Source: Edaphobacter sp.
GTDB taxonomy: Bacteria > Acidobacteriota > Terriglobia > Terriglobales > Acidobacteriaceae
Length of the DNA: 56,591 bases
Reading direction: 5' to 3'
NCBI GenBank assembly: GCA_025462755.1
Contig: JAOAPF010000148.1
Coordinates: 1 to 56,591, forward strand
Within the stretch, counting starts at the first letter, position 1, and each line of letters starts with the position of its first letter. Of the stretch, positions 15,319-32,473 are shown piece after piece. The notes beneath the pieces were generated by a model. It saw nothing but the letters and a program-made list of their open reading frames with translations, was not told the origin of the DNA and searched no databases. Both the position numbers and the translations under genes were made by a program.

Positions 15319-16416
15319 ATGCATTTCGTCGTGTTTGGTCTCTGCATTTCTTCGTCGTGGGGAAACGGACACGCCACTTTATGGCGAGGTCTAGTGAAGG
15401 CACTCGTCTGCCGCGGACACACACTCAGCTTTTACGAGAAAGACGTACCCTACTACGCCTCCACGCGCGACGGCTGGATACCTCCAGCGGGCGTTCGAGT
15501 TTGCCTTTACGCTGCCTTTGAAGATGTTGTGGAGAATGTCAAACGTGAGCTGGCGCATACGGATGTGGCGCTGTCGACGAGCTATTGCGCCGATGGGATT
15601 GCCGCATCTCGCATCTTGCTGGATTCGGCTGTGCCGATCAAAACCTTTTACGATCTCGATACGCCAGTGACGCTCGATTCTTTGCGTTCAGGCGCATCGG
15701 TCCCCTATGTTCCTGCGGAAGGCTTGGGCAGCTTCGATCTGGTTCTGAGCTATACGGGTGGACGCGCGCTGACGGAGTTGCAATCGAAGCTAGGCGCTCG
15801 ACTGGTGGCTCCGCTATACGGCTGGGCGGATACCGAGACGCATGCCCCCGCGGCAGCTATGAACGAGTTTCGGTCTGAGCTCTGCTATTTGGGGACGTTT
15901 GCGGCCGACCGGCAGACGGCGCTTAACGAATTATTTGTGCAGGCCGCGCGCTTGCGGCCGGACAAGCGCTTTGCTATTGGAGGGGCGCAGTACCCCGATG
16001 ATTTTCCTTGGACACCAAACATTTTCTTTGTTCGACATCTGCCACCGTCGCTGCATCCGGCATTCTTCTGCTCAGGGCGAGCCACATTGAATGTCACGCG
16101 ACATGCGATGGCACAGTACGGATTCTGCCCCTCCGGCCGTCTGTTCGAAGCCGCTGCATGCGGTGCACCGATCCTGAGTGATCGGTGGGAAGGGCTTGAG
16201 TCGTTTTTTGAACCGGGCAAGGAGATTCTGCCGGTTTGCTGCACAGACGATGTTCTCGCGGCGTTGTCCCTGAGTGATCGAGAGTTGCGCGATGTTGCGG
16301 CAGCGGCGAGGACGAAGTGCCTCGAGAATCATACGGCTGCGCGAAGAGTGCTCGAGTTCGAAGTCATCTGTGATGCTGTTCACAAGAGTCCACCGCAACC
16401 GGCGCTCGTTGCATAG
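15319..16416 (+). CDS. CgeB-like glycosyltransferase 1
   Basis: The protein has 365 residues; GAAGGAG lies just before the ATG at 15319. It begins with a GT-B-type segment, MHFVVFGLCISSSWGNGHAT, with HATLWRGLVKALVCRGHTL following. The C-terminal half carries the Glyco_trans_1_2/CgeB signature: ATLNVTRHAMAQYGFCPSGR, LFEAAACGAPILSDRWEGLE and FFEPGKEILPV. It is closely related in layout to the protein encoded on the opposite strand at 19677-20837. It should transfer a sugar from a nucleotide donor to a glycan acceptor in the cytoplasm. It is the first gene of a five-gene plus-strand operon; the next gene starts 20 bases downstream. Confidence 0.9.
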   Translation: MHFVVFGLCISSSWGNGHATLWRGLVKALVCRGHTLSFYEKDVPYYASTRDGWIPPAGVRVCLYAAFEDVVENVKRELAHTDVALSTSYCADGIAASRILLDSAVPIKTFYDLDTPVTLDSLRSGASVPYVPAEGLGSFDLVLSYTGGRALTELQSKLGARLVAPLYGWADTETHAPAAAMNEFRSELCYLGTFAADRQTALNELFVQAARLRPDKRFAIGGAQYPDDFPWTPNIFFVRHLPPSLHPAFFCSGRATLNVTRHAMAQYGFCPSGRLFEAAACGAPILSDRWEGLESFFEPGKEILPVCCTDDVLAALSLSDRELRDVAAAARTKCLENHTAARRVLEFEVICDAVHKSPPQPALVA

Positions 16417-16436
16417 CGAGGACAGGAGAAGACGAA

Positions 16437-17240
16437 ATGTGGGGCATTATTCCCGCGGCGGGTGCAGGAAGCCGCATACAGCCATTGGCATTTTCGAAGG
16501 AACTGTTACCGGTGGGCGGTCGCACACGCGGCGAGGAGGAACGTCCCCGCGCTGTCAGTGAGTATTTGGTTGAACGAATGATTCGCGGGGGTGCCGATAA
16601 GCTCTGCTTCGTCATCTCACCGGAGAAATCCGACATTCTCGAGTACTACGGGGCAGCGGCGTGGGGGGCGGATATCGCTTACGTTGTGCAGCCGAGTCCA
16701 GCCGGACTGTGCGACGCGATCTTTCGGGCTGCTGTGCTTATACAGCAGACTGAGCCGGTGGTGATCGGACTGCCCGATACCATCTGGTCTCCAGTTGATG
16801 GTCTCCAACTCCTTCCCTCTGATGTTTTGTCGTTTCTCTTATTTCCTGTTGAGCATCCGGAGTTCTTCGACGCCGTCGTGACCGATGCAGACGGCCGTGT
16901 CCTCCAGATTGCCGTGAAACAGCGCGGAGCCTCATCCAACTGGATATGGGGTGCGATCAAGATGCCGGGAAGGGTTTTCCACGCTCTGCATCGCCTGTGG
17001 CTCAGTCCGGAACGCCACGATGAGTACTTTGGCACCCTGGTAAACGCGTGGATTGCTCGGGGAGGAGTGGCGATGGGGGTGCCAGGGGGCGAGGAGTATG
17101 TCGATGTCGGCACGTTGCAGGGTTATCGTGCTGCGATTCGGCTGCTTCAGCAGACAAGCGACGATGACAATTCTCGCTTTAGAAGCGATAAGAAAGGAAG
17201 CTCAGATGGCCAGCGTCTTAACAGGAACGCTATCAGGTGA
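16437..17240 (+). CDS. Sugar-phosphate nucleotidyltransferase
   Basis: This 267-residue protein has the nucleotidyltransferase signature at its start, MWGIIPAAGAGSRIQPLAFS followed by KELLPVGGR, with the conserved Lys of the KELLPV motif. Other elements are CDAIFRAAVLI (residues about 91-101), VVIGLPDTIW (nucleotide/metal site), WIWGAIKMPGRVFHAL and YVDVGTLQGYRAAI near the end, all in GalU/RmlA order. It would form an NDP-sugar from a sugar-1-phosphate; which nucleotide and sugar cannot be read from the motifs. It precedes a methyltransferase whose start lies inside its 3' end (35-base overlap), so the two are translationally linked. Confidence 0.9.
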   Translation: MWGIIPAAGAGSRIQPLAFSKELLPVGGRTRGEEERPRAVSEYLVERMIRGGADKLCFVISPEKSDILEYYGAAAWGADIAYVVQPSPAGLCDAIFRAAVLIQQTEPVVIGLPDTIWSPVDGLQLLPSDVLSFLLFPVEHPEFFDAVVTDADGRVLQIAVKQRGASSNWIWGAIKMPGRVFHALHRLWLSPERHDEYFGTLVNAWIARGGVAMGVPGGEEYVDVGTLQGYRAAIRLLQQTSDDDNSRFRSDKKGSSDGQRLNRNAIR

Positions 17241-18012
17241 AAAAAGTATTGAGAGGCAAATCGCCGCTCTCGGACCGTGGTTCCACAATATCTGTCTGGG
17301 CGGCGTACAGACGGCGCCGGAACACTTTCTCGGCGACTATCCGCGGGCAAAGTTCGAATCGTTCCGCGATGCGATTCCACTGGACTTGACGGGCAAGACC
17401 GTTCTCGATATCGGATGCAATGCGGGGTTCTACTCGTTTGAGATGAAGCGCAGAGGAGCTGCTCGCGTTCTCGGGATCGACGCGGACGAACATTATCTTC
17501 GCCAGGCCCGCTTCGCTGCTGAGGTCAAATGCGCGGATGTTGAATTCCGGTGTTTGCCTGTTTGGGATGTTGCGGAGTTACAAGAAAAATTCGATCTGGT
17601 GATCTTTATGGGAGTTCTCTACCACCTCCGCCATCCTCTGCTTGCACTGGATTTAATTCACGAGCACGTGGCCAAGGACCTGATGGTCTTCCAAAGCATG
17701 CAGCGCGGAAGCCGGGAGTTGATCGATGTAAAACCGGATTACGACTTCAACGCCGCCGCCCCTTTTGACGATCCTGCCTATCCCAAGTTGCATTTCATTG
17801 AGCATCGCTACTCTCACGACGAGACAAACTGGTGGGTTCCGAATCGTGGCTGCGTGGAGGCGATGCTCCGCTCAGCAGGATTTCGAATTGAAGCCCACCC
17901 GGAGGAAGAAGTGTATCTTTGCCGCTGGCAGCAAATCCAAACTCCGCCCGATGGACCGCATTGTGTCTACCCAGCCAAAGCGAGGAACTATGAACGCGAC
18001 CGGCGGAAATAA
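17206..18012 (+). CDS. SAM-dependent methyltransferase, TIGR04290 (Rta_06860)-like
   Basis: I chose the ATG at 17206, preceded by AGAAAGGAAG, giving 268 residues. The class I SAM-binding motif is at about 66-76 (VLDIGCNAGFYSFEM), the acidic second motif is VLGIDADEHYLRQA, and motif IV is DLVIFMGVLYHLRHPLLALD. The sequence around FHNICLGGVQTAPEHFLGDY and HDETNWWVPNRGCVEAML resembles a subfamily I remember as TIGR04290, found beside B12-binding radical SAM proteins in oligosaccharide clusters (memory, not a search). It probably methylates a sugar or a lipid-linked intermediate. It overlaps the preceding gene by 35 bases and the next by 23. Confidence 0.88.
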   Translation: MASVLTGTLSGEKSIERQIAALGPWFHNICLGGVQTAPEHFLGDYPRAKFESFRDAIPLDLTGKTVLDIGCNAGFYSFEMKRRGAARVLGIDADEHYLRQARFAAEVKCADVEFRCLPVWDVAELQEKFDLVIFMGVLYHLRHPLLALDLIHEHVAKDLMVFQSMQRGSRELIDVKPDYDFNAAAPFDDPAYPKLHFIEHRYSHDETNWWVPNRGCVEAMLRSAGFRIEAHPEEEVYLCRWQQIQTPPDGPHCVYPAKARNYERDRRK

Positions 18013-19063
18013 CGATGAGAGACTCCTCCGCCGAGGCGAGGAACTTCTCTCAGCGCGTCGATTGAGCGAAGCGCTTGATCTATTCCGGCGCGCAGAAAGT
18101 TTTGGCGCCGGTGCCGACCGCTGCGCCGCAGGACGCTGGATGGTGTATATGCTCCTGGGCGATTTTGAACTGGCGTGGGCCGAGAGCGACGGGATTCGCC
18201 GGCGAGGCGCTCCCGATCCGCATCGTTTCTGGCAGGGCGAATCGCTCCGTGACAAACGCGTTATGCTGCGTTGCCTGCATGGCTTTGGAGATGCGGTGCA
18301 GTTCCTGCGTTATGTTCCGCGTTTGCGCGAGATAGCTTGTGAGCTGATCGTTGAAGTGTCTCCGCAATTCCAAGAATTGGCTTTTTGCTTTGACGGCGTG
18401 GAAGAGGTGATCACCTGGGGTGAAAGGGCCCAGGCTTCGACGTCGGTGTGGGATGTGCAGATTGAAAGCAACGAACTTCCGTTTGTCTTTCGCACGCGGC
18501 TTAGCGATCTGCCGCTGGCTACGAACTACCTGAAGATACCGCTGGACCGCGATCGGACTCGAGCCGTTCGAGCACCTTCTCGCGATGTTCTTCGGGTTGG
18601 ACTGGCGTGGACGGCCGGTGCCTGGAATCCACAGCGATCTGTTCCGTTCGTAGGGATGCGATCGCTGCTGGAGATTGATGGGTGTGAGTTCTGGAGCCTG
18701 CAGGCCGGCCCTAATGTAGTCGGGGGCAAGTCCTTTCCGGCAGGCACGACCCTCCGCGAAGATCCTGGTTGCCGCGATAGCATCAAGGGGTTGGCAGCGA
18801 AGATCTCGCAACTCGACCTTGTTATCACTGTCGACACGCTGGCAGCACATCTGGCGGGAGCGTTGGGGGTCCCCGCGTGGGTGCTACTTCAGCACGAAGC
18901 TGATTGGCGTTGGCTGCATGAGGTGGACCACAGCCCCTGGTATCCGTCGCTGCGACTATTTCGCCAACCGAAGGCCGGAGACTGGAAGAGCGTTATTTGC
19001 GCGGTGAAAGATGCGCTTTGGAATTGGTCACGCGCCTCAAACCGTGATGGACTAGTGGCGTAG
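17990..19063 (+). CDS. GT9/heptosyltransferase-like protein with short repeat-like N-terminus
   Basis: From the ATG at 17990 (AAAGCGAGGAAC upstream) the protein has 357 residues. The first about 75 residues are helical and TPR-like (LLRRGEELLSARRLSEALDL, FRRAESFGAGADRCAAGRWM). From about residue 85 it resembles the heptosyltransferase-like GT-B fold found behind TPRs: LRDKRVMLRCLHGFGDAVQF, VGLAWTAGAWNPQRSVPF, DLVITVDTLAAHLAGALGVP and WVLLQHEADWRWLHEVDHSP. The D-T-x-x-x-H-L-A-G motif is the donor-binding part. It likely adds a sugar to the cluster's glycan or acts on a lipid or protein carrier. It overlaps the methyltransferase gene by 23 bases and is followed by the phosphatase after 3 bases. 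Confidence 0.82.
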   Translation: MNATGGNNDERLLRRGEELLSARRLSEALDLFRRAESFGAGADRCAAGRWMVYMLLGDFELAWAESDGIRRRGAPDPHRFWQGESLRDKRVMLRCLHGFGDAVQFLRYVPRLREIACELIVEVSPQFQELAFCFDGVEEVITWGERAQASTSVWDVQIESNELPFVFRTRLSDLPLATNYLKIPLDRDRTRAVRAPSRDVLRVGLAWTAGAWNPQRSVPFVGMRSLLEIDGCEFWSLQAGPNVVGGKSFPAGTTLREDPGCRDSIKGLAAKISQLDLVITVDTLAAHLAGALGVPAWVLLQHEADWRWLHEVDHSPWYPSLRLFRQPKAGDWKSVICAVKDALWNWSRASNRDGLVA

Positions 19064-19066
19064 ACG

Positions 19067-19765
19067 ATGACAGCCCACACAATTCTCGATCGCCCTTGGG
19101 ACGGTTTCGATGCCTATCTTTTCGACATCGATGGGACACTCCTTCACTGCTCCGATGCCGTACACTACTTCGCATTTTGCGATGCTTTGAAGGCATTGTC
19201 CGGCAATCCACTCACGCTCGAAGGAGTTACCGCACACGGAAACACTGACGTTGGAATTCTCCGCGATGCGCTGGCTCTTGCTGGTGTGGCGGACGCCGAA
19301 TGGCGACCCAGAGTGATCGAGATTCGGACAAGGATGTGCCGGTTCGTCGAGACTCGCAAAGACGAATTGTGCGCTGCAGCGCTACCTTGCGTGCGCGAAG
19401 TGCTCGCGCACTTGGAGGGCCAAGACGCCACTCTGGGTATTGTGACCGGAAACTTAAAGGATATCGGGCGAATGAAGCTGCAACATGCCGGACTGCTCGA
19501 CTACTTCAACGTATTCGGATGGAGCGATGATTTTGAATACCGCGTAGATGTCTTCCGCAGCGCAGTTGAGCAGATCCGTGCTGCAATGCCACTGAGTGCA
19601 AGGATCTGTGCTGTGGGAGATACTCCCGCCGACGTGCTTGCCGCGCGGGCAAACGGCCTGCCGGTGATCGCGGTAGCTACGGGTGTGTATTCACGGGAAC
19701 AGCTTCTGACGGAAGAGCCGGATCTTTGCCTGGAATCGTTTGAGGAACTATTTCGCGCTGCGTAG
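19067..19765 (+). CDS. HAD-superfamily phosphatase
   Basis: The protein has 232 residues with all four HAD motifs: motif I FDIDGTLL with nucleophile Asp20 and acid/base Asp22, motif II threonine in LGIVTGNLKDIG, motif III lysine nearby in GRMKLQHAG, and motif IV VGDTPADVLAARANG. The cap lies between motifs I and II (helical, residues about 30-110), as in phosphoglycolate phosphatase-like enzymes. In this cluster it could dephosphorylate a sugar phosphate intermediate (inference from position). It is the last gene of the plus-strand operon, and its final 89 bases overlap the 3' end of the convergent glycosyltransferase gene. Confidence 0.9.
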   Translation: MTAHTILDRPWDGFDAYLFDIDGTLLHCSDAVHYFAFCDALKALSGNPLTLEGVTAHGNTDVGILRDALALAGVADAEWRPRVIEIRTRMCRFVETRKDELCAAALPCVREVLAHLEGQDATLGIVTGNLKDIGRMKLQHAGLLDYFNVFGWSDDFEYRVDVFRSAVEQIRAAMPLSARICAVGDTPADVLAARANGLPVIAVATGVYSREQLLTEEPDLCLESFEELFRAA

Positions 19766-20837
19766 CATGACTGTCGATGCTGGACACGATGTCTTCGAAC
19801 TGGCAGGCGCGATGCATCGAAGTATGGTCTGCAAATATGCGTTCGCGCGCGCTGTTACCGATTTTGCGACGTTCGGCATCGGGGAGATGAAGCAGGATGT
19901 CGGTGACGTCGTGCTCCTCGCGGGGAAGGAGAATTTGCTCGCCGGGAGAGAGAAATTCGTCGAGACCTTCCCAGTCATCCGACAGAATCGCAGCTCCACA
20001 CGCCGATGCTTCAAACAGCCGGACCGAAGGAGAGTAGCCGGCAGTGACCATGTTCTCGCGTGTGAGATTCAAGGTGAATCGTGCCGACGAGTAGAAGGCT
20101 GGATGATCTGGAGGGGACACATGGGTGAAGCGCGACACGTTTGGCTGCCAAGTTATTTCCTGCGGATACATCGCTCCAGCAACCAGGAAACGGTAGTTCG
20201 GCAGCAACGCGGCAGGCTCGTTCAGCAAGCGCATGAGCTTTGGCTGACGATCCGAGGCATACGTACCAAGATAGCTAAGGTCAACCTGAAAGGCTTCCCG
20301 CAGCGATGAGCGTTTGTATAGATCGGGGTCGACGGAACAGTAAAATGGAATAGCCTGTCGCGCGCCAAAACATTCTTCCAGTTCTTTTAGCGCAGGACCT
20401 CCGGTGAAGCTGAGATACGCGGCGTAGTGTGGAATTAAAGAGGCATCAAGGTACTCGACACTTCCATTTGCACGAAGTCCGGCTAGCGTAATTGGCGTGT
20501 CTATATCATAGAAAAGAATGGGACCGAAGCCGGCTTCTACAATCGCTTTCGTAGCATTGATTGCGTCCGGAAAGTAAGAACCAATGATGACAGCGTCAGC
20601 ATCGCTGCACATCTGTATAAGCCCCTGGCGGCTGGACTTCCAATCCTTGTAAAGCCGCAGTTTGCAATATTCGGGCTTCGGCAAGTCACGATTATTTTTG
20701 TACCATTCGACGTTCTTTTCGATGAATTCGACGTGATGGCCTCTGCGGGCGAGAGCTTTCACCAGCGAACGGAAGGTTGTTGCATGCCCGTTCCCCCAGG
20801 CCGACGTGATAGTGAGGCCAAAGATGACAATCTTCAT
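19677..20837 (-). CDS. CgeB-like glycosyltransferase 2
   Basis: This 386-residue protein opens with MKIVIFGLTITSAWGNGHAT, followed by TFRSLVKALARRGHHVEFIE, and closely parallels the first glycosyltransferase of the plus operon. The CgeB/Glyco_trans_1_2 C-terminal part is present (FTLNLTRENMVTAGYSPSVR, LFEASACGAAILSDDWEGLD, EFLSPGEQILL). The C-terminal about 25 residues are a proline-rich tail (QTIPGKDPALPSEAVPVN). It is the last gene of the minus operon, overlapping the preceding gene by four bases (ATGA). Its 3' end is antisense to the phosphatase gene for 89 bases. It likely adds one residue of the cluster's oligosaccharide. Confidence 0.9.
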   Translation of the reverse strand: MKIVIFGLTITSAWGNGHATTFRSLVKALARRGHHVEFIEKNVEWYKNNRDLPKPEYCKLRLYKDWKSSRQGLIQMCSDADAVIIGSYFPDAINATKAIVEAGFGPILFYDIDTPITLAGLRANGSVEYLDASLIPHYAAYLSFTGGPALKELEECFGARQAIPFYCSVDPDLYKRSSLREAFQVDLSYLGTYASDRQPKLMRLLNEPAALLPNYRFLVAGAMYPQEITWQPNVSRFTHVSPPDHPAFYSSARFTLNLTRENMVTAGYSPSVRLFEASACGAAILSDDWEGLDEFLSPGEQILLPREEHDVTDILLHLPDAERRKIGNSARERIFADHTSMHRACQFEDIVSSIDSHATQREIVPQTIPGKDPALPSEAVPVNTHP

Positions 20838-21952
20838 GCGATCTCCTGCAAAGCTTCATTGTCTTTTGAGCTAGCTGCAAGTCTCTTGCCGGCTAGGCAA
20901 TCGAGAAATGCACGCTCTGCTTGTAAGGCGCGCTGCTCATAGGTGTGATTGCGCAGCGCCCGTGCATGAAATGCATTGCCGATCCTGCGCCGTGCTTCCG
21001 TGTCGTGTTGCTGAAGAGCTTTCACAACATCTTCCGCGGCGCGGATCACCAGGATCTCTTTGTCGGGCGCGAAACAATCGTCGATTCCCGGCCAGTCGTC
21101 GCAGAGCATACAGGTTCCGGCGCCGCTCACCTCGAAGACCCGTGTTGGTGGCGAGAAACCAAAGTCGGCCATCGATTTCCGGTTAATATTCATCACCATG
21201 CCCGCCGAGCAGTTCAACCGATTGTGATCCTCCGTCGAGACGTGACCGATCCAACGCACATTGGGAGGCATGGGCTTGTCAGCCCAACCTTCCCCACCAA
21301 GAAGAAACTTCTTCTCCGAAGCAAGCTCCGCCGCGCGAAGGAAGAGCTCCTCTACGCGAGCTTCGCGGTCGGGAAGGCGATTGCCAAGGAAGGCGACGTC
21401 GCAGGCTAACGATAAGTCCGGCGGTACCGGATGGTGCGTCTCTGGATCGAGTCCGTTGTAGATGCTGTGATAGGCGCGTGCTCCCGCGTCAAGATAGCCT
21501 TGCCGGGCTTTCGGGCCGCCACCGTAAGTAAGAATTGCATCGTAGCGGGGAATGGCAGCATGGAAGGCATCATGCCTATCGGCCTGAATGCGGCCCAGTG
21601 TCGCCGGGGCATCGACGTCCCAGAAGATTACAGCCCTCCGCGCCTGTAACTCCAGAACACGGCGTTCGAGGAGATCGTCATCCACGCCGAGGCCGCTGTG
21701 CTTGACGACCACGTCCGCCTCACACGCCAAGTCAAGCATGACGTCGATGTCTGTCGTGGGCTGATAAACGACAGCATTTACATAGGAGAAGTCGCCTTCG
21801 TCGCGATGTTGTTCTCGTCCGAAAGCGTCCGGAGAAGCGAACGTAACGTGATGTCCTCTGCGCGCCAGATACTTGTAGATGCCACGATAATAGGTTGCAG
21901 CGCCGTTCCAGTATGAGGTAAGAATGCTGGCGCCAAAGGCAAATATCTTCAC
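20834..21952 (-). CDS. CgeB-like glycosyltransferase 3
   Basis: The protein has 372 residues. It starts MKIFAFGASILTSYWNGAAT, followed by YYRGIYKYLARRGHHVTFAS, the same layout as glycosyltransferases 1 and 2 but clearly diverged. Domain boundaries are the same: an N-terminal Rossmann-like half with KHSGLGVDDDLLERRVLELQ and FWDVDAPATLGRIQADRHDA, and a C-terminal half with MVMNINRKSMADFGFSPPTR, VFEVSGAGTCMLCDDWPGID and CFAPDKEILVI. The replacement of the usual ACGA by GAGTC suggests a different donor or acceptor (inference). Four-base overlaps join it to both neighbours. Confidence 0.9.
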   Translation of the reverse strand: MKIFAFGASILTSYWNGAATYYRGIYKYLARRGHHVTFASPDAFGREQHRDEGDFSYVNAVVYQPTTDIDVMLDLACEADVVVKHSGLGVDDDLLERRVLELQARRAVIFWDVDAPATLGRIQADRHDAFHAAIPRYDAILTYGGGPKARQGYLDAGARAYHSIYNGLDPETHHPVPPDLSLACDVAFLGNRLPDREARVEELFLRAAELASEKKFLLGGEGWADKPMPPNVRWIGHVSTEDHNRLNCSAGMVMNINRKSMADFGFSPPTRVFEVSGAGTCMLCDDWPGIDDCFAPDKEILVIRAAEDVVKALQQHDTEARRRIGNAFHARALRNHTYEQRALQAERAFLDCLAGKRLAASSKDNEALQEIA

Positions 21953-23064
21953 GAGAGCGACTCCTCTAGGATGGTGGAGAGTTGTTGGGCACGATGCCGG
22001 CAGGTGTGGTGGGTGAGAACGGTTTCCAAACCGCGCAATGCTTGCGCTTTTGCAGCTTCAGGATCGTTAAGCAGGTACGCCATCGCGCGGCGCATCTCCG
22101 CAGCATTACGCACTGTAAGAAAATCACCTTCACGAAACAGGCACTCACTGTCTTGCCAAGGGGCGGAGATCAACGGGATGCCGCAGGCGAGGGCTTCAAA
22201 GACACGGATCGTTGGGATGCCCCTCATTGCGGTGGCATATTGCTGGCGCGGAATGTGGACTGTAAGACGCGCGGTGGCGTACGCCGCGGGGGCACAGAGA
22301 TTTGTTAGATAACCGCCGTAGTGCACCCCGGCCTCGCGAAGAGCGATTAAACCATCGTGAGGATAGCGAACGCCATAAACGGTGAATCGACGATCGTTCA
22401 ACTCCCGCGCGGGACAGAGAAGAAAATGCTTGATCTCTGCGGAGCGTTCATCGTCTCCCCAATTGCCGATCCAAACGACATCATTTTCTTTGCGCAGCCG
22501 CGGAAGAGGCCTGAAGACTGTGGTGTCAGCAGCCTCGTGCAAAGTCCAGACGTGCTGGATATTAAATTGCTCCCGATATATTGTCGCCAGCGATTCCCCG
22601 AACGCGAGGACAGCATCGAAACGGTCGATACCGAAGAGGCGAATCTGATCCGGCGAAGAAGAGGCACGATGGTGCGTGTCGTGAAATATAACGCGGAATG
22701 GCATCTCATCGCGAAGCTGGAGCAGGGCTTGTGCAAGTGCTGGTGCGTTCCACTCGTGAACGATGACCACATCTACTTTGCGTAGCGGTTCGCGCCAACA
22801 CTCAAGATCACCGACATCATTTGGATCATACGGGTGGACCGAGAGATCGGGGTATATGTCTGAGAATCGTTGCAACGAGTGTGCGCCTGTAGATTCGCTC
22901 CTCAGATTTTCTATCGACCAGCTGTGAACAGGCTCGAAGATGACTACGTCGTGCCCGAGTTCCCCCAGGCTTCGGAGCAAGCCGCGAAGGAAATGAGCAT
23001 TGCCATTATTCCAATCCGAGCGCACCGAATGGGCGAAGTAGGCAATGCTGAGTTTATGCGACAT
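21949..23064 (-). CDS. CgeB-like glycosyltransferase 4
   Basis: This 371-residue protein begins MSHKLSIAYFAHSVRSDWNN, with GNAHFLRGLLRSLGELGHDV following. The C-terminal donor-binding half includes LTVHIPRQQYATAMRGIPTI, RVFEALACGIPLISAPWQDS and ECLFREGDFLTVRNAAEM, the family's usual order. It is the most divergent of the four related glycosyltransferases here. The central DAVLAFGESLATIYREQF segment marks the end of the N-terminal half. Its start overlaps the end of the upstream GT4 gene by 11 bases, and its end overlaps glycosyltransferase 3 by four bases. Confidence 0.88.
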   Translation of the reverse strand: MSHKLSIAYFAHSVRSDWNNGNAHFLRGLLRSLGELGHDVVIFEPVHSWSIENLRSESTGAHSLQRFSDIYPDLSVHPYDPNDVGDLECWREPLRKVDVVIVHEWNAPALAQALLQLRDEMPFRVIFHDTHHRASSSPDQIRLFGIDRFDAVLAFGESLATIYREQFNIQHVWTLHEAADTTVFRPLPRLRKENDVVWIGNWGDDERSAEIKHFLLCPARELNDRRFTVYGVRYPHDGLIALREAGVHYGGYLTNLCAPAAYATARLTVHIPRQQYATAMRGIPTIRVFEALACGIPLISAPWQDSECLFREGDFLTVRNAAEMRRAMAYLLNDPEAAKAQALRGLETVLTHHTCRHRAQQLSTILEESLS

Positions 23065-24157
23065 TAGCGACCTCTCGATTGCGTGCCAGCAACTGTTGGA
23101 ACAAAGAGAAATAAGAGGAGGTCATTTGCTCTCGGCTATAGGTCTGAGCCTGAACTGACGAACGCGCCTTCGCTTTCGCCAACAGTTTTCGGTCGCCGTG
23201 CAGCTTCCGAAGTAGTTCAGAAAGTGAAGCCGCGTCATTGAAATACAGCGCTCCGTCCTGCCATACTTCGCGCAAAGAAGGAATGTCGTTTGCCAAGATG
23301 GCGCATCCGCAGAGCGCAGCTTCAAGTGGTGCAAGGCCGAAGGGCTCGTAACGTGACGTGCAAATATAGAGCTCGCTTTCCCGAAACATCGTGAGAAGAT
23401 CGCCTTCGGCGAGTGGCCCGAGCATGCGCACGGCTCCAAGAGCAGGTGGAGCGCTTGCCCCGCCGTAAGAAATATCGCCGACAACCAACAACGTGATTGG
23501 AGAGGAGACCCTACCCAAAAATCCGACGTTCTTCGCCTCGTCCCAAAGGCGTCCTGCAGAGATGGCCTGGAGTTTGCGAGATTTTCGAGGGGCGGCGGGA
23601 AGGGAGCGCCCATTCGGTATAACGCGACGGTCGTCGGGGAGTTCGAAGCCTTCGCCTAGTGCTTCCAACATCCAGCGGGTCGGCGCAACGACTGCTTGCG
23701 CCGCTGCGAGCCCGGCTCTAACGAGAGAGCGATAGCGGCGCAGCCAATCAGTATCATCGAGTTGATCGGCTCGGCAGGATCTGGCCCAACTCAAGACATC
23801 GCTGTGGGCGGTAATCACCTTGGGCTGATCGATGGGCATCGCCCCAAAACAGAACTGATTGCAATGCAGCACGTCAACTTTGAACTCTTCGATCGAATGG
23901 AGTAGGGATCGCGCGGGTTGCGTATATGCTCTCTCGTTGGCCTGCATCCACTCAAGAGAGACGGCGTGGGCGATGAAATGGAAGTGGCTTCCCCAGCGCC
24001 GCCGCGCGTCGTCAGCCCACTGCTGCTGTTGTCCGTTGGGCAGACGCCCAAAGCTGACGAGCACTATTTCACAGCCTGCTTCAAGCAACCCTGTTGTGAG
24101 TTCCTGGGTGAAGGTCCAGACACCACCGATAGTATCTGTGGTTATCAGGATACGCAT
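23054..24157 (-). CDS. Family 4 glycosyltransferase
   Basis: I chose the ATG at 24157, giving 367 residues that start MRILITTDTIGGVWTFTQEL, a classic GT-B N-terminus; the longer frame adds 32 unlikely residues. The acceptor half contains VDVLHCNQFCFGAMP and PKVITAHSDVLSWARSC. The donor half has AVVAPTRWMLEALGEGF, VIPNGRSL, KLQAISAGRLWDEAKNVGFL and the EX7E motif in YEPFGLAPLEAALCG. It should use a nucleotide-sugar with retention of configuration. The start overlaps the end of the radical SAM gene by 13 bases, so translation is coupled. Confidence 0.92.
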   Translation of the reverse strand: MRILITTDTIGGVWTFTQELTTGLLEAGCEIVLVSFGRLPNGQQQQWADDARRRWGSHFHFIAHAVSLEWMQANERAYTQPARSLLHSIEEFKVDVLHCNQFCFGAMPIDQPKVITAHSDVLSWARSCRADQLDDTDWLRRYRSLVRAGLAAAQAVVAPTRWMLEALGEGFELPDDRRVIPNGRSLPAAPRKSRKLQAISAGRLWDEAKNVGFLGRVSSPITLLVVGDISYGGASAPPALGAVRMLGPLAEGDLLTMFRESELYICTSRYEPFGLAPLEAALCGCAILANDIPSLREVWQDGALYFNDAASLSELLRKLHGDRKLLAKAKARSSVQAQTYSREQMTSSYFSLFQQLLARNREVANVA

Positions 24158-25452
24158 TCGAGCTCCGCCAGTGACTGGGGATTCTGCTCCTGAATATCGC
24201 TGAAGCCTTTGTCTGCGAAGAGCTGAAGATAAAAAGAGTGTGCCCTCTCCCATGCAATATCGTCAGGCTGTTCGCCGAAGGTCTCGACATACTGCGGGCT
24301 GCCGGGAAACGGGAACATGGGTACGGGCTCGCTGACCCATACGCCGTTCGCTTTAAGACGTTGCTGCCATGCGGTTACCATCCCAGGATCGTCTTTCGCT
24401 GTCTTAATCAGATTTGCTTGAACCCACGGGATGAACTTGCGGGCACAGATAAGCAAATCTCCGATGCGATCGGTGGACAGGCGGCAATTCTTGTTCAGTT
24501 CCTCGCGTCCTTCTTCGGTGATGGATTCGATGCCACACTCGAACGAGACACAGTGAGCGCGCCCAAGTAATTGCAACGATTCTTCGTTCCAAAGATCGAT
24601 GCGGGTTTGAAAACCGATCGACACCGGACGTTTCGCGATCTCTTCCAGAAGTTTGCGAACCTGCTTGCCTACGCCAAAGATCTCGTCAATGAAGTAGATA
24701 TAGTCCACCCCACGCGATATGAGCTGATCGACCTCAGCGAGCACCACTGAAAGCTTACGTTCCCGATAAGTGTTTCTGAAGAGTGTCTTATTGCAAAAAG
24801 TACACGAGTAAGGACAGCCGCGCGCGAACTCGACCTCCGCACCCAATTTGAGATGGTCCGCCCCGTTTCCAGGGAAGATGTGATGAAGATGACGATGGCA
24901 TTCGACCGGATAATCCGAGTAGTCGAGCGCGCTCAGGGATTGCATCTCGGTGACGCCGAGCCCTTGTGCCATCCGGACAGTTCCGCTGTCGTCTCGCCAG
25001 CAGCAACCAGCGATCATCTCCCACGGCACGGATGCAAGCTGCGGAAGGGTCTGGTCGGCTTCGCCCCGAAGGACTACGTCGGCTCGTGTTTTCTGGAGCG
25101 CCATCTGTGGTGTAACGGAACCGTGCGGTCCGATGACAACGACCTTTGACGATCGGCCAAGCGCTGCGATCCAGTGGGTTGGGACACGAAGTTCCGGCTG
25201 AGGACAGCGCCAAAACAAATACGAAGGTGCAGTTGGAATCACCAGAAAATCTTCATTGAATGCATCGAGACGCTCAGTTACCTGTTGCGGCGTGAGATTT
25301 TCCATAAACGCATCGACCAGAAGAACGGTATTACTCTCCCTGCGCAACATCTCCCGGGCCGAAAGTAACTCCAATGGAAAGTGAGGCGCTGGGCAACCGA
25401 AATATGTCGAGCCCTCAAAGCTCCATTTGGGGTTTACCAGGGCGAATTTCAT
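24145..25452 (-). CDS. B12-binding radical SAM protein, TIGR04295 (Rta_06920)-like
   Basis: The protein has 435 residues. The N-terminal about 150 residues form a cobalamin-binding-like domain (SFEGSTYFGCPAPHFPLELL near the start; VVVIGPHGSVTPQMAL at about 104-119; ADVVLRGEADQTLPQLA after it), without the DxHxxG motif of base-off binders. The radical SAM cluster ligands are Cys213, Cys217 and Cys220 in RGCPYSCTFCNK. The barrel continues with DYIYFIDEIFG, SIGFQTRIDLWNEESLQLLG and CVSFECGIESITEEGREELN. I recall this subfamily as TIGR04295, tied to oligosaccharide clusters (memory). It may methylate or rearrange a sugar; the reaction is unknown. Flanking genes overlap by 4 and 13 bases. Confidence 0.9.
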   Translation of the reverse strand: MKFALVNPKWSFEGSTYFGCPAPHFPLELLSAREMLRRESNTVLLVDAFMENLTPQQVTERLDAFNEDFLVIPTAPSYLFWRCPQPELRVPTHWIAALGRSSKVVVIGPHGSVTPQMALQKTRADVVLRGEADQTLPQLASVPWEMIAGCCWRDDSGTVRMAQGLGVTEMQSLSALDYSDYPVECHRHLHHIFPGNGADHLKLGAEVEFARGCPYSCTFCNKTLFRNTYRERKLSVVLAEVDQLISRGVDYIYFIDEIFGVGKQVRKLLEEIAKRPVSIGFQTRIDLWNEESLQLLGRAHCVSFECGIESITEEGREELNKNCRLSTDRIGDLLICARKFIPWVQANLIKTAKDDPGMVTAWQQRLKANGVWVSEPVPMFPFPGSPQYVETFGEQPDDIAWERAHSFYLQLFADKGFSDIQEQNPQSLAELECVS

Positions 25453-26546
25453 GCGACCTCCTGGGCCACCAATTCAGACGGAGTGTGCCGACGAGTCATC
25501 GCGTTAATAGCGATGGCCTCACGGCTTTTAACCCAGAAGCGGTGAATGTCCTCGAATATGTGGTCAAGCGATCGATAGGGGCGCCAATCGGTGTAGCGTT
25601 GGAGTTTTGAGGTATCGGAGATGTACAGAGGCTGGTCGCCTGGGCGTGTATCACGGTACTCAAGATGTAGCGGGCTGCCAGTCCTCCGTTCAATCTCACG
25701 AAGCATCTCTATGACAGAGACCACGCGTTCCATGCCTCCACCCAGATTAAAGATTTGCCCTCGAGTGTTGTCTTCCGCCTCCCGCACCGCCATCATCGCG
25801 TCGATGAGATCGTGGACGTGCAGTACATCGCGGACCTGGCAGCCGTTGCCGTAAATCGTAATCGGCCGACCGGCCAGAACGGAGTAGAGGAAGTGCGCCA
25901 CCCATCCCTGATCTTCATTGCCGAATTGTCTAGGACCGGCGATACAGGACATGCGGAAGACGACTGTCGGAAGATCGAAGATTCGCGCATAGTCGTGCAC
26001 ATACTGATCGGCCGCTCCTTTGGAACAGCCGTACGGCGAGTGAAAATCGAGCCGTTCACTTTCATTTACTCCTTGAAACATCGGACCGGAGACCCGGTAA
26101 CGGGAACCTTCCACCTCGACAGGAAGGTTTTCGAGCGAGCCATAAACCTTGTTGGTAGATGTATACAGAAAAAATGGTTTGCGGCCGGAGTTCCGAGCGG
26201 CCTCCAAAACGTTAAGGGTGCCGAGTGCATTCACGTTGAAGTCAGAGCCAGGGTCATCGAGCGAAGTGGTTACCGCCACCTGAGCCGCAAGGTGATAAAT
26301 CTCTGTAACGTTGCGGACGACATCCTGGACCGCCTTGGCGTCTCGTACATCTCCCTGAATGATGGAGAGTCTCTTACTTCCCGGAAGCGATTGCAGCCAG
26401 TCGAGGTTGTGCCGTACGCCGCGACGAGACAGATTATCGAAGATGCGCACCCGAACGCCTGGCTGGTTCAGCAGACGCTCGGCAAGATTTGAGCCGATGA
26501 AACCTGCTCCACCGGTGATCAAAGCGGTACGGGGACTTCCATTCAT
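25449..26546 (-). CDS. NAD-dependent sugar-nucleotide epimerase, CDP-paratose 2-epimerase-like
   Basis: The ATG at 26546 gives 364 residues. The NAD site is TALITGGAGFIGSNLAERLL (7-26), and the catalytic SDR triad includes the serine/threonine of LYTSTNKVYG and Tyr172/Lys176 in DFHSPYGCSKGAADQYVHDY. Downstream, VFRMSCIAGPRQFGNEDQGW and ITIYGNGCQVRDVLHVHDLI closely match the CDP-tyvelose (paratose) 2-epimerase group, not the UDP-glucose 4-epimerase group. It would interconvert a nucleotide-bound hexose in the cytoplasm to supply one of the cluster's glycosyltransferases. The gene overlaps the radical SAM gene by four bases and sits 58 bases after the next epimerase. Confidence 0.9.
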   Translation of the reverse strand: MNGSPRTALITGGAGFIGSNLAERLLNQPGVRVRIFDNLSRRGVRHNLDWLQSLPGSKRLSIIQGDVRDAKAVQDVVRNVTEIYHLAAQVAVTTSLDDPGSDFNVNALGTLNVLEAARNSGRKPFFLYTSTNKVYGSLENLPVEVEGSRYRVSGPMFQGVNESERLDFHSPYGCSKGAADQYVHDYARIFDLPTVVFRMSCIAGPRQFGNEDQGWVAHFLYSVLAGRPITIYGNGCQVRDVLHVHDLIDAMMAVREAEDNTRGQIFNLGGGMERVVSVIEMLREIERRTGSPLHLEYRDTRPGDQPLYISDTSKLQRYTDWRPYRSLDHIFEDIHRFWVKSREAIAINAMTRRHTPSELVAQEVA

Positions 26547-26604
26547 AGAGAATTCTTCCTTCCTTGCGCGAGCCACGAGGCACAACGCAGCTTTTCCACG
26601 TGGG

Positions 26605-27726
26605 CTAGGCGGTAAGACCGAACAGAGTTAGCTCCTGTAGCATGGTCTCTGCTTTGTCCTCGGCTTGCTGTTCTCCCAGCCACTCGGCCAGTTCTTTGAA
26701 CCCCTCCTCGTAGTCGACCTGGGGCTCATATCCAAGCAAGCGATGAGCCTTCGAGAGATCGGCAAAGCAGTGGCGTATGTCGCCGGCGCGGTATTTGTTA
26801 GTGATCATTGGTTCAACATCTTTGCCGAGAGAACGGGCAAGAATCTCCGCGACTGTACGAATCGTTATCGGCTTTCCACCGCCGATGTTGATGACCTCAC
26901 CGTTCGACGCCGGCTGATCCATGGCGAGAATGTTGGCACGGACGATGTCGTGAATACTGACGAAATCCCGCATTTGTTCTCCGTCTTCAAAGACAAGGGG
27001 CGCCTGATTGTTCAAGATGCGTGAAGCAAAGATCGCTGCGACCCCGGTGTAGGGATTCGAGAGAGCCTGGCGCGTTCCGTAGATGTTGAAGAAGCGCAAG
27101 GCCGTGAGCGGCAGCCCATAGGTCCGTCCATAGATCAGACAGAGTTCTTCCTGGTCGCGCTTAGAAAGGGCGTAGATAGAGTTGATCTCGGACGGCTTCG
27201 TCTCGGGCGTCGGCAAGGGAAGAAGAACTCCGCGGCACACATCGCAGGAAAGATCCCATTGTCCTGATTTTAACTGGTCGGTGGATCGGACTGGCGGAGC
27301 CGCTTGTCGCCCGCAAGCAGAACAGGTGTAACGACCCTCGCCATAAATCGACATGGAAGAGGCGACAATGAGTTTTTCCAAAGGTCTCTTGGAGTCGAGA
27401 GTCGCCTGAAGCAACTCTGCCGTTCCCTGCGTATTCACGCTCATATAGCGCGCAATCTCATACATCGACTGACCGACGCCAACCGTGGCGGCGAAATGAT
27501 AGACGACATCTACTCCGGCGAGTGCTTCTTTGAGACGATTGGGATCGCGTACGTCTCCTGAGATCAGTTCGATGTCCTTCGAGAGATAATCTGGCCTGCC
27601 GAGAGGGTGCACCTGCGGTGTTAGGTCGTCGAGAATACGAACCTGATGCCCGGCCTTGAGAAGACCGTCGGCCAAGTGGGAGCCTACAAATCCGGCTCCT
27701 CCAGTGATAAGGATTTGCTTGCTCAT
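26605..27726 (-). CDS. NAD-dependent sugar-nucleotide epimerase with zinc-ribbon-like insertion
   Basis: This 373-residue protein is an extended SDR: NAD site ILITGGAGFVGSHLADGLL (5-23) and YxxxK at Tyr185-Lys189 (SIYALSKRDQEEL). Between the active-site serine (SSMSIYGEGRYTC) and the tyrosine is an insertion with CSAC (Cys135, Cys138) and CDVC (Cys161, Cys164), about 22 residues apart, looking like a zinc ribbon. I recall this insertion in enzymes annotated as dTDP-L-rhamnose 4-epimerase-like. ALRFFNIYGTRQALSNPYTG is the substrate-loop signature of NDP-hexose epimerases. I chose the ATG at 27726, which overlaps the preceding stop codon by four bases. Confidence 0.88.
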   Translation of the reverse strand: MSKQILITGGAGFVGSHLADGLLKAGHQVRILDDLTPQVHPLGRPDYLSKDIELISGDVRDPNRLKEALAGVDVVYHFAATVGVGQSMYEIARYMSVNTQGTAELLQATLDSKRPLEKLIVASSMSIYGEGRYTCSACGRQAAPPVRSTDQLKSGQWDLSCDVCRGVLLPLPTPETKPSEINSIYALSKRDQEELCLIYGRTYGLPLTALRFFNIYGTRQALSNPYTGVAAIFASRILNNQAPLVFEDGEQMRDFVSIHDIVRANILAMDQPASNGEVINIGGGKPITIRTVAEILARSLGKDVEPMITNKYRAGDIRHCFADLSKAHRLLGYEPQVDYEEGFKELAEWLGEQQAEDKAETMLQELTLFGLTA

Positions 27727-28658
27727 GATATGCACTCTTCCTTTGGTTGAAGATTGGCGGAAGGGGCGAGGTACGCAGGAGCATAGCGCTCTACGGCCCA
27801 GGCGGCAAAGTCGGCGAATTGCTTATTGTCTTTCGGGGGGCTCGTATGGTGCTCTTCCAAACCGAGATGTGCAGGGGTGAAGCACAAGGTCAGCGAAACA
27901 TCGAATGGATCAAGCGCCCCCATCATGCGATCGAACCAGGCAGTTGCATTTGGCCGGAACGAATCTGCCCAACTCAAGCCCGTTCGCAGGTAACGAACGC
28001 CATGATCCTTCATCCAGCGGACGGCATCGTAAAGGCGTGGATCTTCGAAATGGAACCACTGACAGAGACCAGTAGATCCGTCGCATGGAAAAGATGCCGC
28101 AGAAAGCTTGGGTGCTCCATCGTGACGCAGAAGACCCAGATAATAGTGGCGGTAATACGATGAACCCTCCGCTTCCTTGTGGCGAGTCTCGGCAGGCCAG
28201 GATGGGGGAAGATCGAACAAACTGTACCAGTGCACGCGTTCTGTTTTTCCTTTTAGCAACGCGAGCATGCGCTCCAGACCGAACCATTGCACCTCTTCGG
28301 CGCCGAATGACGAAGCGCCTATTTCGAGAACCCACACCGGCTTGCCTGAGACCTTCGCGGCCTCTTCAACGCGCGCGGGCCACTCATTGATCTGCCAATG
28401 ATTCCAGTCGAGCGGAAAACCATGAACTCCAACGATATCTACCGCTTCCATGACGCCATGCCGCACCATGAGCCGTAGGAAGTCGCAATCGCAGGAAGAA
28501 ACTCCGCCAAGAACTATCGGCAGATTCGGATTGGCTAACCGAATCGATCGCGAGGCAAGCTTCACCATTTCGCTGAATCGAGTCCAATTCGGATCCAACT
28601 GGAAATTCCAATGCGACAGGTTGTTAGGTTCGTTCCAAAGTACGATCGCTTCCACCAC
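27723..28658 (-). CDS. GH39-like glycoside hydrolase (beta-xylosidase-like)
   Basis: The protein has 311 residues from a GTG at 28658, which follows AAGGGA eight bases upstream; an in-frame stop lies just beyond, so no longer version exists. It has a clan A TIM-barrel: acid/base Glu10 in VLWNEPNNLSHW, VGVHGFPLDWNHWQINEW, and a candidate nucleophile Glu112 in VWVLEIGASSFGAEE. HWYSLFDLPPSW and SLTLCFTPAHLGLEEHHTSP also look conserved. It lacks the first barrel strands and begins almost at the catalytic glutamate. There is no signal peptide, so it would act in the cytoplasm. As first gene of a biosynthetic operon it may trim or transglycosylate the product (inference). Confidence 0.82.
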   Translation of the reverse strand: MVEAIVLWNEPNNLSHWNFQLDPNWTRFSEMVKLASRSIRLANPNLPIVLGGVSSCDCDFLRLMVRHGVMEAVDIVGVHGFPLDWNHWQINEWPARVEEAAKVSGKPVWVLEIGASSFGAEEVQWFGLERMLALLKGKTERVHWYSLFDLPPSWPAETRHKEAEGSSYYRHYYLGLLRHDGAPKLSAASFPCDGSTGLCQWFHFEDPRLYDAVRWMKDHGVRYLRTGLSWADSFRPNATAWFDRMMGALDPFDVSLTLCFTPAHLGLEEHHTSPPKDNKQFADFAAWAVERYAPAYLAPSANLQPKEECIS

Positions 28659-32100: not shown

Positions 32101-32473
32101 GGTCCATATTGACAACCACCTGCTCTGATACGGACCCAACAGTCAATTGCGCGTTGACTGTGGTGTTCTCGACGTTCAACGTAACCGAAGGGCGCACGAG
32201 CTCCGAGAACCCCGACTTCGAGAACGTGATCTTGTAAGTTCCCGCCACAATCGAAGACGTATCGTAGACGCCGTCATTATTTGTAACGTAGACCTTGGAG
32301 ACACCCGTGTTGGTGTTTTCGACCGTCACGTTCACGCCCGGCAACGCCGCCCCCGTCGTATCGGTCACGACTCCACGTATGTCACCGGAATTGGTGCTCT
32401 GCCCGAATGCCATTCCTGCCAATCCCGCCCACAGCAGGGCCGCCAGGATCTTTGTTGACCATGTAGATTTCAT
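29117..32473 (-). CDS. Oar-like TonB-dependent outer-membrane receptor
   Basis: This 1118-residue protein starts MKSTWSTKILAALLWAGLAG with a signal cleavage site near FGQ. A carboxypeptidase-regulatory-like domain follows (IRGVVTDTTGAALPGVNVTV, about 33-115), then a plug domain (SANSDIYTQETIQEVQVGTS and YNQISKGGTDRFHGSAYEYF), and a long barrel ending RTMQVSARLSF, with the C-terminal Phe needed for outer-membrane assembly. Such receptors in acidobacteria are often linked to glycan use. The upstream 490 bases carry two palindromes (32598-32613 and 32922-32935). It lies downstream of an alpha/beta hydrolase and a chitinase on the same strand. Confidence 0.92.
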   Translation of the reverse strand: MKSTWSTKILAALLWAGLAGMAFGQSTNSGDIRGVVTDTTGAALPGVNVTVENTNTGVSKVYVTNNDGVYDTSSIVAGTYKITFSKSGFSELVRPSVTLNVENTTVNAQLTVGSVSEQVVVNMDLPLLKTENGEQTFMLDAQTLSQLPQVGQDWSSMNILIAGSAGAPGGNQGALGTGTSNGTMLAVNGNLPFSTVLADGAETTLPASANSDIYTQETIQEVQVGTSAFSAQYGVGGILYNQISKGGTDRFHGSAYEYFQNDALNAYSYNFGGKPQKPYLRYHNFGGSIGGPILKRKLFFYFNFDKIIQHGGTQPAFYSVPTSAVLAGDFTGFPTIYDPNTTTIVGGVVHRTSFASEYNNGNKIPASRFDPVAAATQKYFPAANAPGQVVNGIVTNNYVYTSPSSNPFTRYFGRLDYQVTANNRITITESEGDNPGQSFGAGICPIGCQSNDVSKNSAQISDVWTISPRMTNEARFGYTNQLNFFAPLTLGQGYPAKLGWKFSIADNFPDIQINGYNQGCNASTVLCSQSNAVYKEHVYNPSDVVTLIVGKHILHFGGEFLIYQNNSTAWGNLNAGTMGYTGIYTASTQGDSSTGAAYADFLLGQTQSWSANATPEYGGRLKLPQLFVQDDYKLRPNLTVNLGLRYQIQTGWSEVKGNEASFDPTVTNPATGTLGAMWYGSTQANGRTRIQNGVYNTFLPRLGFSYLLDPNTTIRGGFGIYAYNWSNDTYNGTSVGPIMGAALGSKGSAADTTNGAAPLVILSGAGSNLPLVGATTNPAGFNGTNVNYAAYHQPVGGSYQWNIQLQRQVNNNLVASLAYVASHGHDLPFAVDINQVPVGKLAQNDQQFRPYPQFGSIAVAGAVPNENAISNFHSLQAQIEQRLSHGLHFSFNYTWSHFLDDLDSAGWGSHSGNTNWQNAYNPAANYGNSNFDIRNAFKGYVIYQLPFGRGRQFLNSNSLIDAVIGGWQLSDTLVVQSGQPFTPVMQTDTSYSQAGNNFALYPNVVGNPQLSNRGVKQWFNEAAFAPPAPGTFGNEHRNQLTGPGLVTTNLSLSKTFSIWEDVKLQVRADANNAFNHPSFGLPANQLTAVGGAIVTGSSTINSVTVPSRTMQVSARLSF

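Follow-up and report, generated by a model that had tools for sequence, protein, structure and literature searches.

We have analyzed a stretch of DNA of 56,591 nucleotides (the window) from Edaphobacter sp., a member of the Acidobacteriota (assembly GCA_025462755.1, contig JAOAPF010000148.1). It contains a cluster of thirteen genes which may code for the synthesis of an oligosaccharide. The contig (C221) belongs to a genome of 7.1 Mb, which is 88% complete with 6% contamination. Open reading frame (ORF) calling places the genes in two convergent operons, with five genes on the + strand (15319-19765), eight on the - strand (19677-28658) and 89 nt shared at 19677-19765. A previous analysis, made from the sequence alone (the sequence-only reading), had proposed the same arrangement, with genes mostly joined by overlaps, and both points hold. 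The overlaps range from 4 to 35 nt. On the + strand they are found between the second and third genes (35 nt) and between the third and fourth genes (23 nt, taking the in-frame ATG at 17990 as start). On the - strand, three junctions overlap by 4 nt and three by 11 to 13 nt. The three remaining junctions are gaps of 20 nt (16416/16437), 3 nt (19063/19067) and 58 nt (26546/26605).

The + strand operon starts with a glycosyltransferase (GTa, 15319-16416; PF13524, 122.9 bits) of a family which we take to be CgeB-like, and its orthologues are found beside the next two genes in related clusters. These are a sugar-1-phosphate nucleotidyltransferase similar to RmlA and GlmU (NT, 16437-17240; PF00483, 40.4 bits), whose 29-member family conserves the GAG-R-QPL-FSKELLPVG region, and a S-adenosylmethionine (SAM) methyltransferase (MT, 17206-18012), which is similar in sequence to CmoB (74.5 bits). 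They are followed by a weak GT9-like protein (17990-19063; PF01075, 16.2 bits, below the cut-off of 22), with orthologues in other clusters, and by a HAD-family phosphatase (19067-19765; PF13419, 60.6 bits).

The - strand operon starts with a glycoside hydrolase (GH, 27723-28658; catalytic-core match of 21.4 bits, cut-off 21). Two short-chain dehydrogenase/reductase (SDR) proteins come next: SDRb (26605-27735; PF01370, 172 bits), an extended SDR of the nucleoside diphosphate (NDP)-sugar epimerase/dehydratase kind with a CxxC...CxxC insert, and SDRa (25449-26546), an NDP-sugar C2 epimerase similar to CDP-tyvelose 2-epimerases (1orr and 9rl0, 264 and 262 bits). A B12-type radical SAM enzyme (rSAM, 24145-25452) is followed by a GT4-family glycosyltransferase (GT4, 23054-24157; PF13439/PF00534), which is the candidate first transferase, and by three more PF13524 glycosyltransferases: GTd (21949-23064, 117.2 bits), GTc (20834-21952, 122 bits) and GTb (19677-20837, 121.1 bits). 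Six glycosyltransferase-like proteins had been proposed. Four of them are clear PF13524 members (117-123 bits, Pfam cut-off 25) and one belongs to GT4, while the sixth, at 17990-19063, has only its sub-threshold GT9 match.

MT and rSAM belong to two marker families, as had been predicted: the profile searches give 379.3 bits for TIGR04290 (cut-off 300) and 609.4 bits for TIGR04295 (cut-off 400), the latter over positions 1-422 of 422. Both are hypothetical equivalogs in the NCBI models, a class for conserved families without an assigned function. They mark an oligosaccharide neighbourhood called "rhizo-twelve". This name, TIGR04295 and TIGR04290 are not mentioned in the papers searched. The rSAM motif (C213-x3-C217-x2-C220) is conserved in at least 95% of 102 sequences, and a B12-binding domain is matched below threshold (PF02310, 23.6 bits, cut-off 32.1). 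The best solved relatives of rSAM are AprD4, TokK and the tryptophan C2-methyltransferase 6wte, to which profile positions 91-334 align with 38 bits. Such relatives would fit methylation or other chemistry alike and do not decide between them. Another contig of the host genome (C414, about 79.8-87.3 kb) has five B12-radical-SAM-like matches in a row, all under the TIGR04295 cut-off.

The cluster is conserved. Six other TIGR04295 matches in the phylum, each taken within a region of at most 20 kb, were compared with the window. All thirteen genes are found together in three of the six (L041, L042 and L043, with GTa and NT inverted in L043), which makes the cluster more than a chance arrangement. 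The other three keep much of the core, and one of them is a contig of only 7.9 kb. TIGR04295 is over its cut-off in 7 of 396 genomes of the phylum. Among 150 genomes of Acidobacteriaceae, the family to which the window belongs and in which the thirteen-gene set is conserved, each marker is found in 43 (42 over cut-off) and both in 41 (Fisher test, 7e-32, a value which overstates independence, as the genomes are related). When 84,980 species genomes were scanned with an alignment of seven rSAM sequences, at least 373 loci were confirmed. The best 80 of these were used, and the spread described here is therefore a lower bound. The glycosyltransferase/SDR/rSAM core, whole or in part, is found in records titled Acidobacteria, Verrucomicrobia, Rhodanobacteraceae, Deltaproteobacteria, Methylobacterium, Mesorhizobium, cyanobacteria and others, and in loci titled Alpha- or Gammaproteobacteria. 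Mis-binning is possible for the Verrucomicrobia and Rhodanobacteraceae records, since they are contigs of metagenome-assembled genomes from bogs which are 75-76% identical to the window. The proposal of a conserved, uncharacterized oligosaccharide neighbourhood is supported: gene sets recur across phyla and the two markers occur together. Clusters elsewhere hold the same gene set. The window differs from the usual alphaproteobacterial form in the addition of the GT9-like and HAD genes and in the lack of INO1 (inositol-3-phosphate synthase), histidine phosphatase and UXS-like genes.

Some loci are smaller. Several acidobacterial ones have SDRa and rSAM, with or without MT, and no glycosyltransferases, and one of them lies beside cell-division genes. 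Loci of the SDRa-rSAM or MT-(SDRa)-rSAM type without glycosyltransferases are L062, L067, L079, L085, L089, L092, L094-L097 and L099. They are perhaps related units rather than the full system, a minimal unit with partners elsewhere. Second matches to single cluster genes are also found: rSAM in L086, and GH, SDRa and GTb in L090, where GH is split between two frames, perhaps through decay or assembly errors.

The sequence-only reading had described the cluster as built around the radical SAM enzyme. This part of it is not supported, as clusters that are equivalent in other respects lack the rSAM gene. In 297 Hyphomicrobiales genomes, TIGR04290 is found in 28 and TIGR04295 in 13, all of which also carry TIGR04290. 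We retrieved the locus in each of the 15 genomes with TIGR04290 alone. The glycosyltransferase operon lies within the retrieved stretch in 10 of them. In eight (G515, G525, G533, G574, G597, G619, G689 and G699), SDRa and GT4 are 39-176 nt apart, with no rSAM match between them. The retrieved sequence of G682 breaks off within the SDRa match, and that of G449 stops at GT4. The remaining five (G408, on an 8 kb contig, G459, G496, G615 and G654) show only an INO1-phosphatase-(GTa-NT)-MT-(GH) module in the retrieved stretch. SDRa and GT4 are also adjacent, without rSAM, in Roseomonas mucosa and on plasmid pSymB of Sinorhizobium meliloti 1021, where the operon from SDRb to MT occupies about 242.5-251 kb and the INO1-phosphatase-GH operon about 255-258 kb. 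No Sinorhizobium is present among nine plasmid records with a TIGR04295 relative, a set which does not cover the chromosomes of those strains. The steadier core is formed by the methyltransferase, the glycosyltransferase/SDR operon and, in alphaproteobacteria, the inositol-phosphate synthase. The system is therefore modular: rSAM seems to add a decoration and not to form the centre.

The alphaproteobacterial clusters suggest what the acceptor may be. Myo-inositol-3-phosphate synthase (INO1) and a histidine phosphatase are found in four of six annotated plasmid relatives (two Azospirillum records and two Bradyrhizobium plasmids). The Geminicoccaceae and Tistrella records do not carry this pair. 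This INO1 is similar to TIGR03450 (543 bits, cut-off 638), a family named for mycothiol synthesis, and the phosphatase is similar to TIGR03848 (154 bits, cut-off 204). PF07994 was tried as a probe for INO1 and rejected in favour of TIGR03450: it misses the alphaproteobacterial type, with 15.8 bits, under its cut-off, and no match in Mesorhizobium G396. A TIGR03450-like INO1 is found in 62 of the 297 Hyphomicrobiales (none over cut-off) versus 12 of the 13 genomes with TIGR04295 (hypergeometric test, 3e-8). It lies within 10 kb of TIGR04290 in 25 of the 28 genomes with this marker. The histidine phosphatase is present in 28 of 29 INO1-bearing stretches, from sets of 13 and 16, and the HAD phosphatase of the window may fill its place. 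An SDR annotated as UDP-glucuronic acid decarboxylase is found in 12 of 13 Hyphomicrobiales TIGR04295 loci (L110 standing for G396).

Mycothiol synthesis uses INO1, MshA, which adds the first sugar to inositol phosphate, and a phosphatase. The alphaproteobacterial form has similar components: a TIGR03450-like INO1, a GT4-family glycosyltransferase and a phosphatase. By analogy, these three would stand for inositol priming as in mycothiol synthesis, and the presence of INO1 and phosphatase in the cassette suggests a soluble, inositol-primed product. There are also differences: the cluster INO1 is under the TIGR03450 cut-off, the cluster has extra glycosyltransferases and methylation, and the gene lists of the annotated clusters include neither cysteine-ligation nor deacetylase genes. 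We consider an inositol acceptor rather probable in alphaproteobacteria. For the window, its chances are slightly short of even.

The second line of evidence from the relatives concerns regulation. The EcfG1 motif of Rhizobium etli is GGAAC-N16-CGTT, as given in an excerpt of PMC3892343. We have looked for GGAAC-N16..18-GTT in 21 alphaproteobacterial loci. Within 400 nt upstream, it is found before 12 of 21 SDRb and 9 of 13 INO1 genes. Ten internal genes, with 186 starts in all, have it in only 3 cases (GTd 2/21, UXS 1/20). Within 150 nt, the counts are 10 of 21 and 9 of 13. A set of 89 letter-permuted motifs gives mean matches of 0.25 (SDRb) and 0.03 (INO1), never more than two. The motif is also present in 8 of a further 16 INO1 loci. 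In the enlarged set, with an exact N17 spacer and 150 nt, it precedes INO1 in 18 of 32 cases and SDRb in 12 of 32, versus MT 0/36, rSAM 0/21 and GT4 0/33. When the proteins are clustered at 85% identity, the motif remains in 10 of 21 INO1 and 8 of 25 SDRb clusters. In S. meliloti 1021, SDRb and INO1 are each preceded by an N17 motif, at distances of about 65 and 73 nt, respectively. The presence of GGAAC-N17-GTT upstream of both operons in many relatives resembles the EcfG/PhyR general stress regulons (RpoE2 in S. meliloti, EcfG1 in R. etli). To judge from these motifs, the cassette is likely to be under EcfG control in many alphaproteobacteria. A search for EcfG together with radical SAM, glycosyltransferase and inositol gave nothing relevant among the literature matches listed, and the excerpts of PMC8877191 and PMC3616915 hold nothing on the S. 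meliloti locus. Presumed locus tags of its genes gave no match in the papers listed, and the terms sought do not occur in PMC6180224, PMC3511301 or PMC2912261.

Some neighbours of the alphaproteobacterial clusters are worth recording. A related S. meliloti record has, about 9 kb beyond the methyltransferase, a gene annotated as coding for a nutrient-deprivation-induced protein. Some clusters are bordered by Mn-catalase, Ku/LigD, treZ or ferritin-like genes, perhaps no more often than by chance. A Gfo/Idh/MocA oxidoreductase and a zinc-binding dehydrogenase adjoin the cluster in S. meliloti (L197:7361-9371) and Roseomonas (L195:16740-18697), possibly providing a further inositol-modifying step.

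The glycosidase of the window is unusual. It starts at a GTG codon, and its residues 8-11 read W-N-E-P, at the place of strand 4 in a clan GH-A enzyme. A mis-called start is ruled out by an in-frame stop only four codons upstream. Cyanobacteria and some alphaproteobacteria have a homologous GH domain as the N-terminal part of an SDRa fusion protein. When six standalone GHs are compared with eight fused proteins, the two matching segments appear in swapped order in all 48 pairs (E 1e-3). E10 and E112, kept by at least 97% of 60 standalone GHs, would be, by homology, the acid/base (in the NEP motif) and the nucleophile. The AF2 model (pLDDT 87.4, pTM 0.87) has eight alternating strands and helices, with strand order by homology 4-5-6-7-8-1-2-3 instead of the canonical beta1 to beta8. 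Foldseek gives only partial or generic TIM-barrel matches, with no full-length GH-A match among the 50 of 1511 matches listed (best TMq 0.45), as expected of a permutant. For the fused form, modelled with pLDDT 81.8, there is a match to PslG that runs along its length (E 1.6e-14, TMq 0.74), and phmmer finds no sequence match to this domain in the PDB at E 0.1. We conclude that the GH of the window is almost certainly a natural circular permutant of the clan GH-A barrel. The sequence-only reading had named it a glycosidase. The catalytic pair is intact, and the permutation had been missed. The enzyme shares with PslG/GH39-type glycosidases the NEP acid/base and the nucleophile Glu, as well as the PslG match of its fused, unpermuted form. 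It differs from them in being permuted between alpha3 and beta4 and, judging by its context, cytoplasmic. No circularly permuted GH-A enzyme appears among the literature matches listed (titles and openings of abstracts).

Fused copies keep both Glu residues in all eight loci where no standalone copy is seen (L120, L121, L122, L127, L128, G468, G533 and G699), some of them short stretches, with a standalone copy possible outside them. Both residues are lost in the two loci with a standalone copy, L107 (ANP/WITG) and L117 (NHP/WITQ). L114, a truncated frame which keeps the nucleophile, is left out of these counts. The loss of Glu only where a standalone copy is present suggests that each pathway requires one active GH. 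Near the S. meliloti cluster, a GH172-family protein is found together with sugar ABC transporter genes (L197:19057-23159).

The closest PDB matches of SDRa are CDP-tyvelose 2-epimerases (264 bits), and the next match drops to 124 bits. The catalytic residues of CDP-tyvelose 2-epimerase are Thr, Tyr and Lys (excerpt of PMC7851689). SDRa keeps them as T131, Y172 and K176, which at least 95% of 91 sequences share. Two of the three CDP-binding aromatics (Trp207, Trp210 and Phe211 in 9rl0) are also kept, as W215 and F219, whereas Trp210 is replaced by H218, and this His is present in at least 95% of the same sequences. C2 epimerization is therefore likely for SDRa, while CDP is doubtful and the nucleotide may be a different one. 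The four-cysteine insert of SDRb is found in 36-37 of 80 family members.

Taken together, the enzymes may be arranged in a pathway. The acceptor, probably myo-inositol-3-phosphate, would come from INO1, coded in the cluster in most alphaproteobacterial forms and elsewhere in the genome of the window. NT would activate a sugar-1-phosphate, SDRa would invert C2, a change of the glucose/mannose type, and SDRb would carry out a second epimerization or a dehydration. The decarboxylase-annotated SDR of alphaproteobacteria points to a pentose. GT4 would add the first sugar to inositol phosphate, and the HAD phosphatase (the histidine phosphatase in alphaproteobacteria) would remove the phosphate. The four PF13524 transferases would then lengthen the chain, and the TIGR04290 enzyme would methylate inositol or a sugar, the methylated nature of the product being suggested by enzyme families. 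Where present, rSAM would add a dispensable modification, for which C-methylation is our guess. The GH, with its intact pair, would trim, edit or transglycosylate the product in the cytoplasm. A role of the product as a stress protectant is possible.

No initiating phosphoglycosyltransferase, flippase, Wzy or ABC exporter is found by Pfam among the thirteen proteins and 12 further ORFs of the window, a scan which leaves aside 11 flanking ORFs of at least 180 aa. None of the thirteen proteins has a segment resembling a membrane span (maximum Kyte-Doolittle value over 19 aa of 1.53). No initiating phosphoglycosyltransferase, flippase or ABC exporter is listed in the annotated clusters of relatives, whose gene tables are incomplete and stand in for a genome-wide search. 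The sequence-only reading had noted the lack of an export system and had listed a cytoplasmic product among its options. Nothing we have seen links the cluster to export, and the cytoplasmic option fits best. We regard a dedicated cytoplasmic glycan pathway as very probable. That it makes a soluble, short, methylated hetero-oligosaccharide, most likely primed by inositol or its phosphate and, in alphaproteobacteria, induced by general stress, is an even proposition. The complete picture, a widespread and so far undescribed class of such compounds acting as general-stress protectants (desiccation, starvation or osmotic stress) in soil bacteria, made by a modular cassette with optional rSAM and with a permuted editing GH derived from a barrel fused to a sugar-nucleotide 2-epimerase, is tentative.

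Several observations weigh against an inositol-primed stress product. The cluster of the window lacks INO1. INO1 (PF01658) is found in 136 of the 150 genomes of its family, including the host genome, outside the cluster. A dedicated copy is therefore not needed, and such near-universal presence makes a co-occurrence test uninformative and gives the inositol link no support there. The clusters with a fused GH-SDRa (L127, L128, G468, G533 and G699) also lack INO1 in the retrieved stretch, and the cyanobacterial carrier G399 has no PF07994 match, which is not proof of absence, as this model misses the alphaproteobacterial enzyme too. In clusters without INO1, the acceptor may differ. The best solved relatives of GT4 are PimA phosphatidylinositol mannosyltransferases, a weak match of 28.7 bits, and no enzyme of the cluster has a known substrate. 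Even with N16-18, the motif is absent upstream of 13 of 32 INO1 and 17 of 32 SDRb genes. It belongs to the alphaproteobacterial relatives. Unlike that of the known EcfG/PhyR regulons, control is here predicted from motifs, and the host of the window is not an alphaproteobacterium.

Other products have to be considered. The cluster might make the repeat unit of an exopolysaccharide, an O-antigen or a lipid-linked glycan, with initiating transferase, flippase and polymerase coded elsewhere. The density of glycosyltransferase and NDP-sugar genes agrees with this, as do the similarity of the methyltransferase to WbdD and EvdMO1, a polysaccharide pyruvyl transferase which adjoins the S. meliloti locus, and the closeness of the unpermuted GH model to PslG, a protein of the Psl exopolysaccharide cluster. 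Nevertheless, the lack of membrane spans, the incomplete gene tables of relatives without initiating transferase or flippase, and INO1 and phosphatase standing where lipid-carrier genes would be, make a surface glycan rather unlikely. Mycobacteria have polymethylated cytosolic polysaccharides, MGLP and MMP. A similar poly- or oligosaccharide, which would bind acyl chains or stabilize enzymes instead of acting as a stress solute, is suggested by soluble enzymes accompanied by a methyltransferase and by accessory proteins related to families named for actinobacteria (the TIGR03450-like INO1 and the TIGR03848-like phosphatase). This is improbable, with a single SAM methyltransferase, an optional rSAM and several different glycosyltransferases, which suggest a fixed short sequence, not a homopolymer.

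The least likely alternative, to which we give very little weight, is a glycosylated signal, siderophore or antibiotic-like secondary metabolite. Antibiotic pathways often contain B12-dependent radical SAM enzymes and sugar methyltransferases. Its patchy spread (7 of 396 phylum genomes) and its plasmid location in nine records also agree with such a product. On the other hand, it is found across several phyla, and the tables of the annotated clusters, which are, as stated, incomplete, show no polyketide synthase, nonribosomal peptide synthetase, resistance or export gene.

The inositol link, the EcfG-type motifs of the relatives and the permutation of the GH are new here. The first two turn an "unknown oligosaccharide" into a specific and testable proposal, and the version without rSAM on pSymB of S. 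meliloti 1021 is carried by a root-nodule bacterium which is a tractable laboratory strain. If the proposal of an inositol-primed stress glycan is true, it adds such a glycan to the few known inositol-based solutes. The permuted GH and its unpermuted sister, both present in the same locus in two cases, are a good case of TIM-barrel re-cutting, and they raise the question of what place a cytoplasmic glycosidase has among biosynthetic genes.

Both sides of the cluster deserve a brief description. Upstream, from 13615 to about 14740 on the + strand, a match to a YghA-type stress short-chain dehydrogenase is spread in three separate pieces over several short ORFs, as if the gene were decaying. SDR genes of this type also adjoin the clusters of several relatives. 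To the right, two carboxypeptidase-regulatory/beta-barrel outer-membrane proteins (PF13620 and PF25183) are coded at 29117-32473 on the - strand and 36200-39445 on the + strand.

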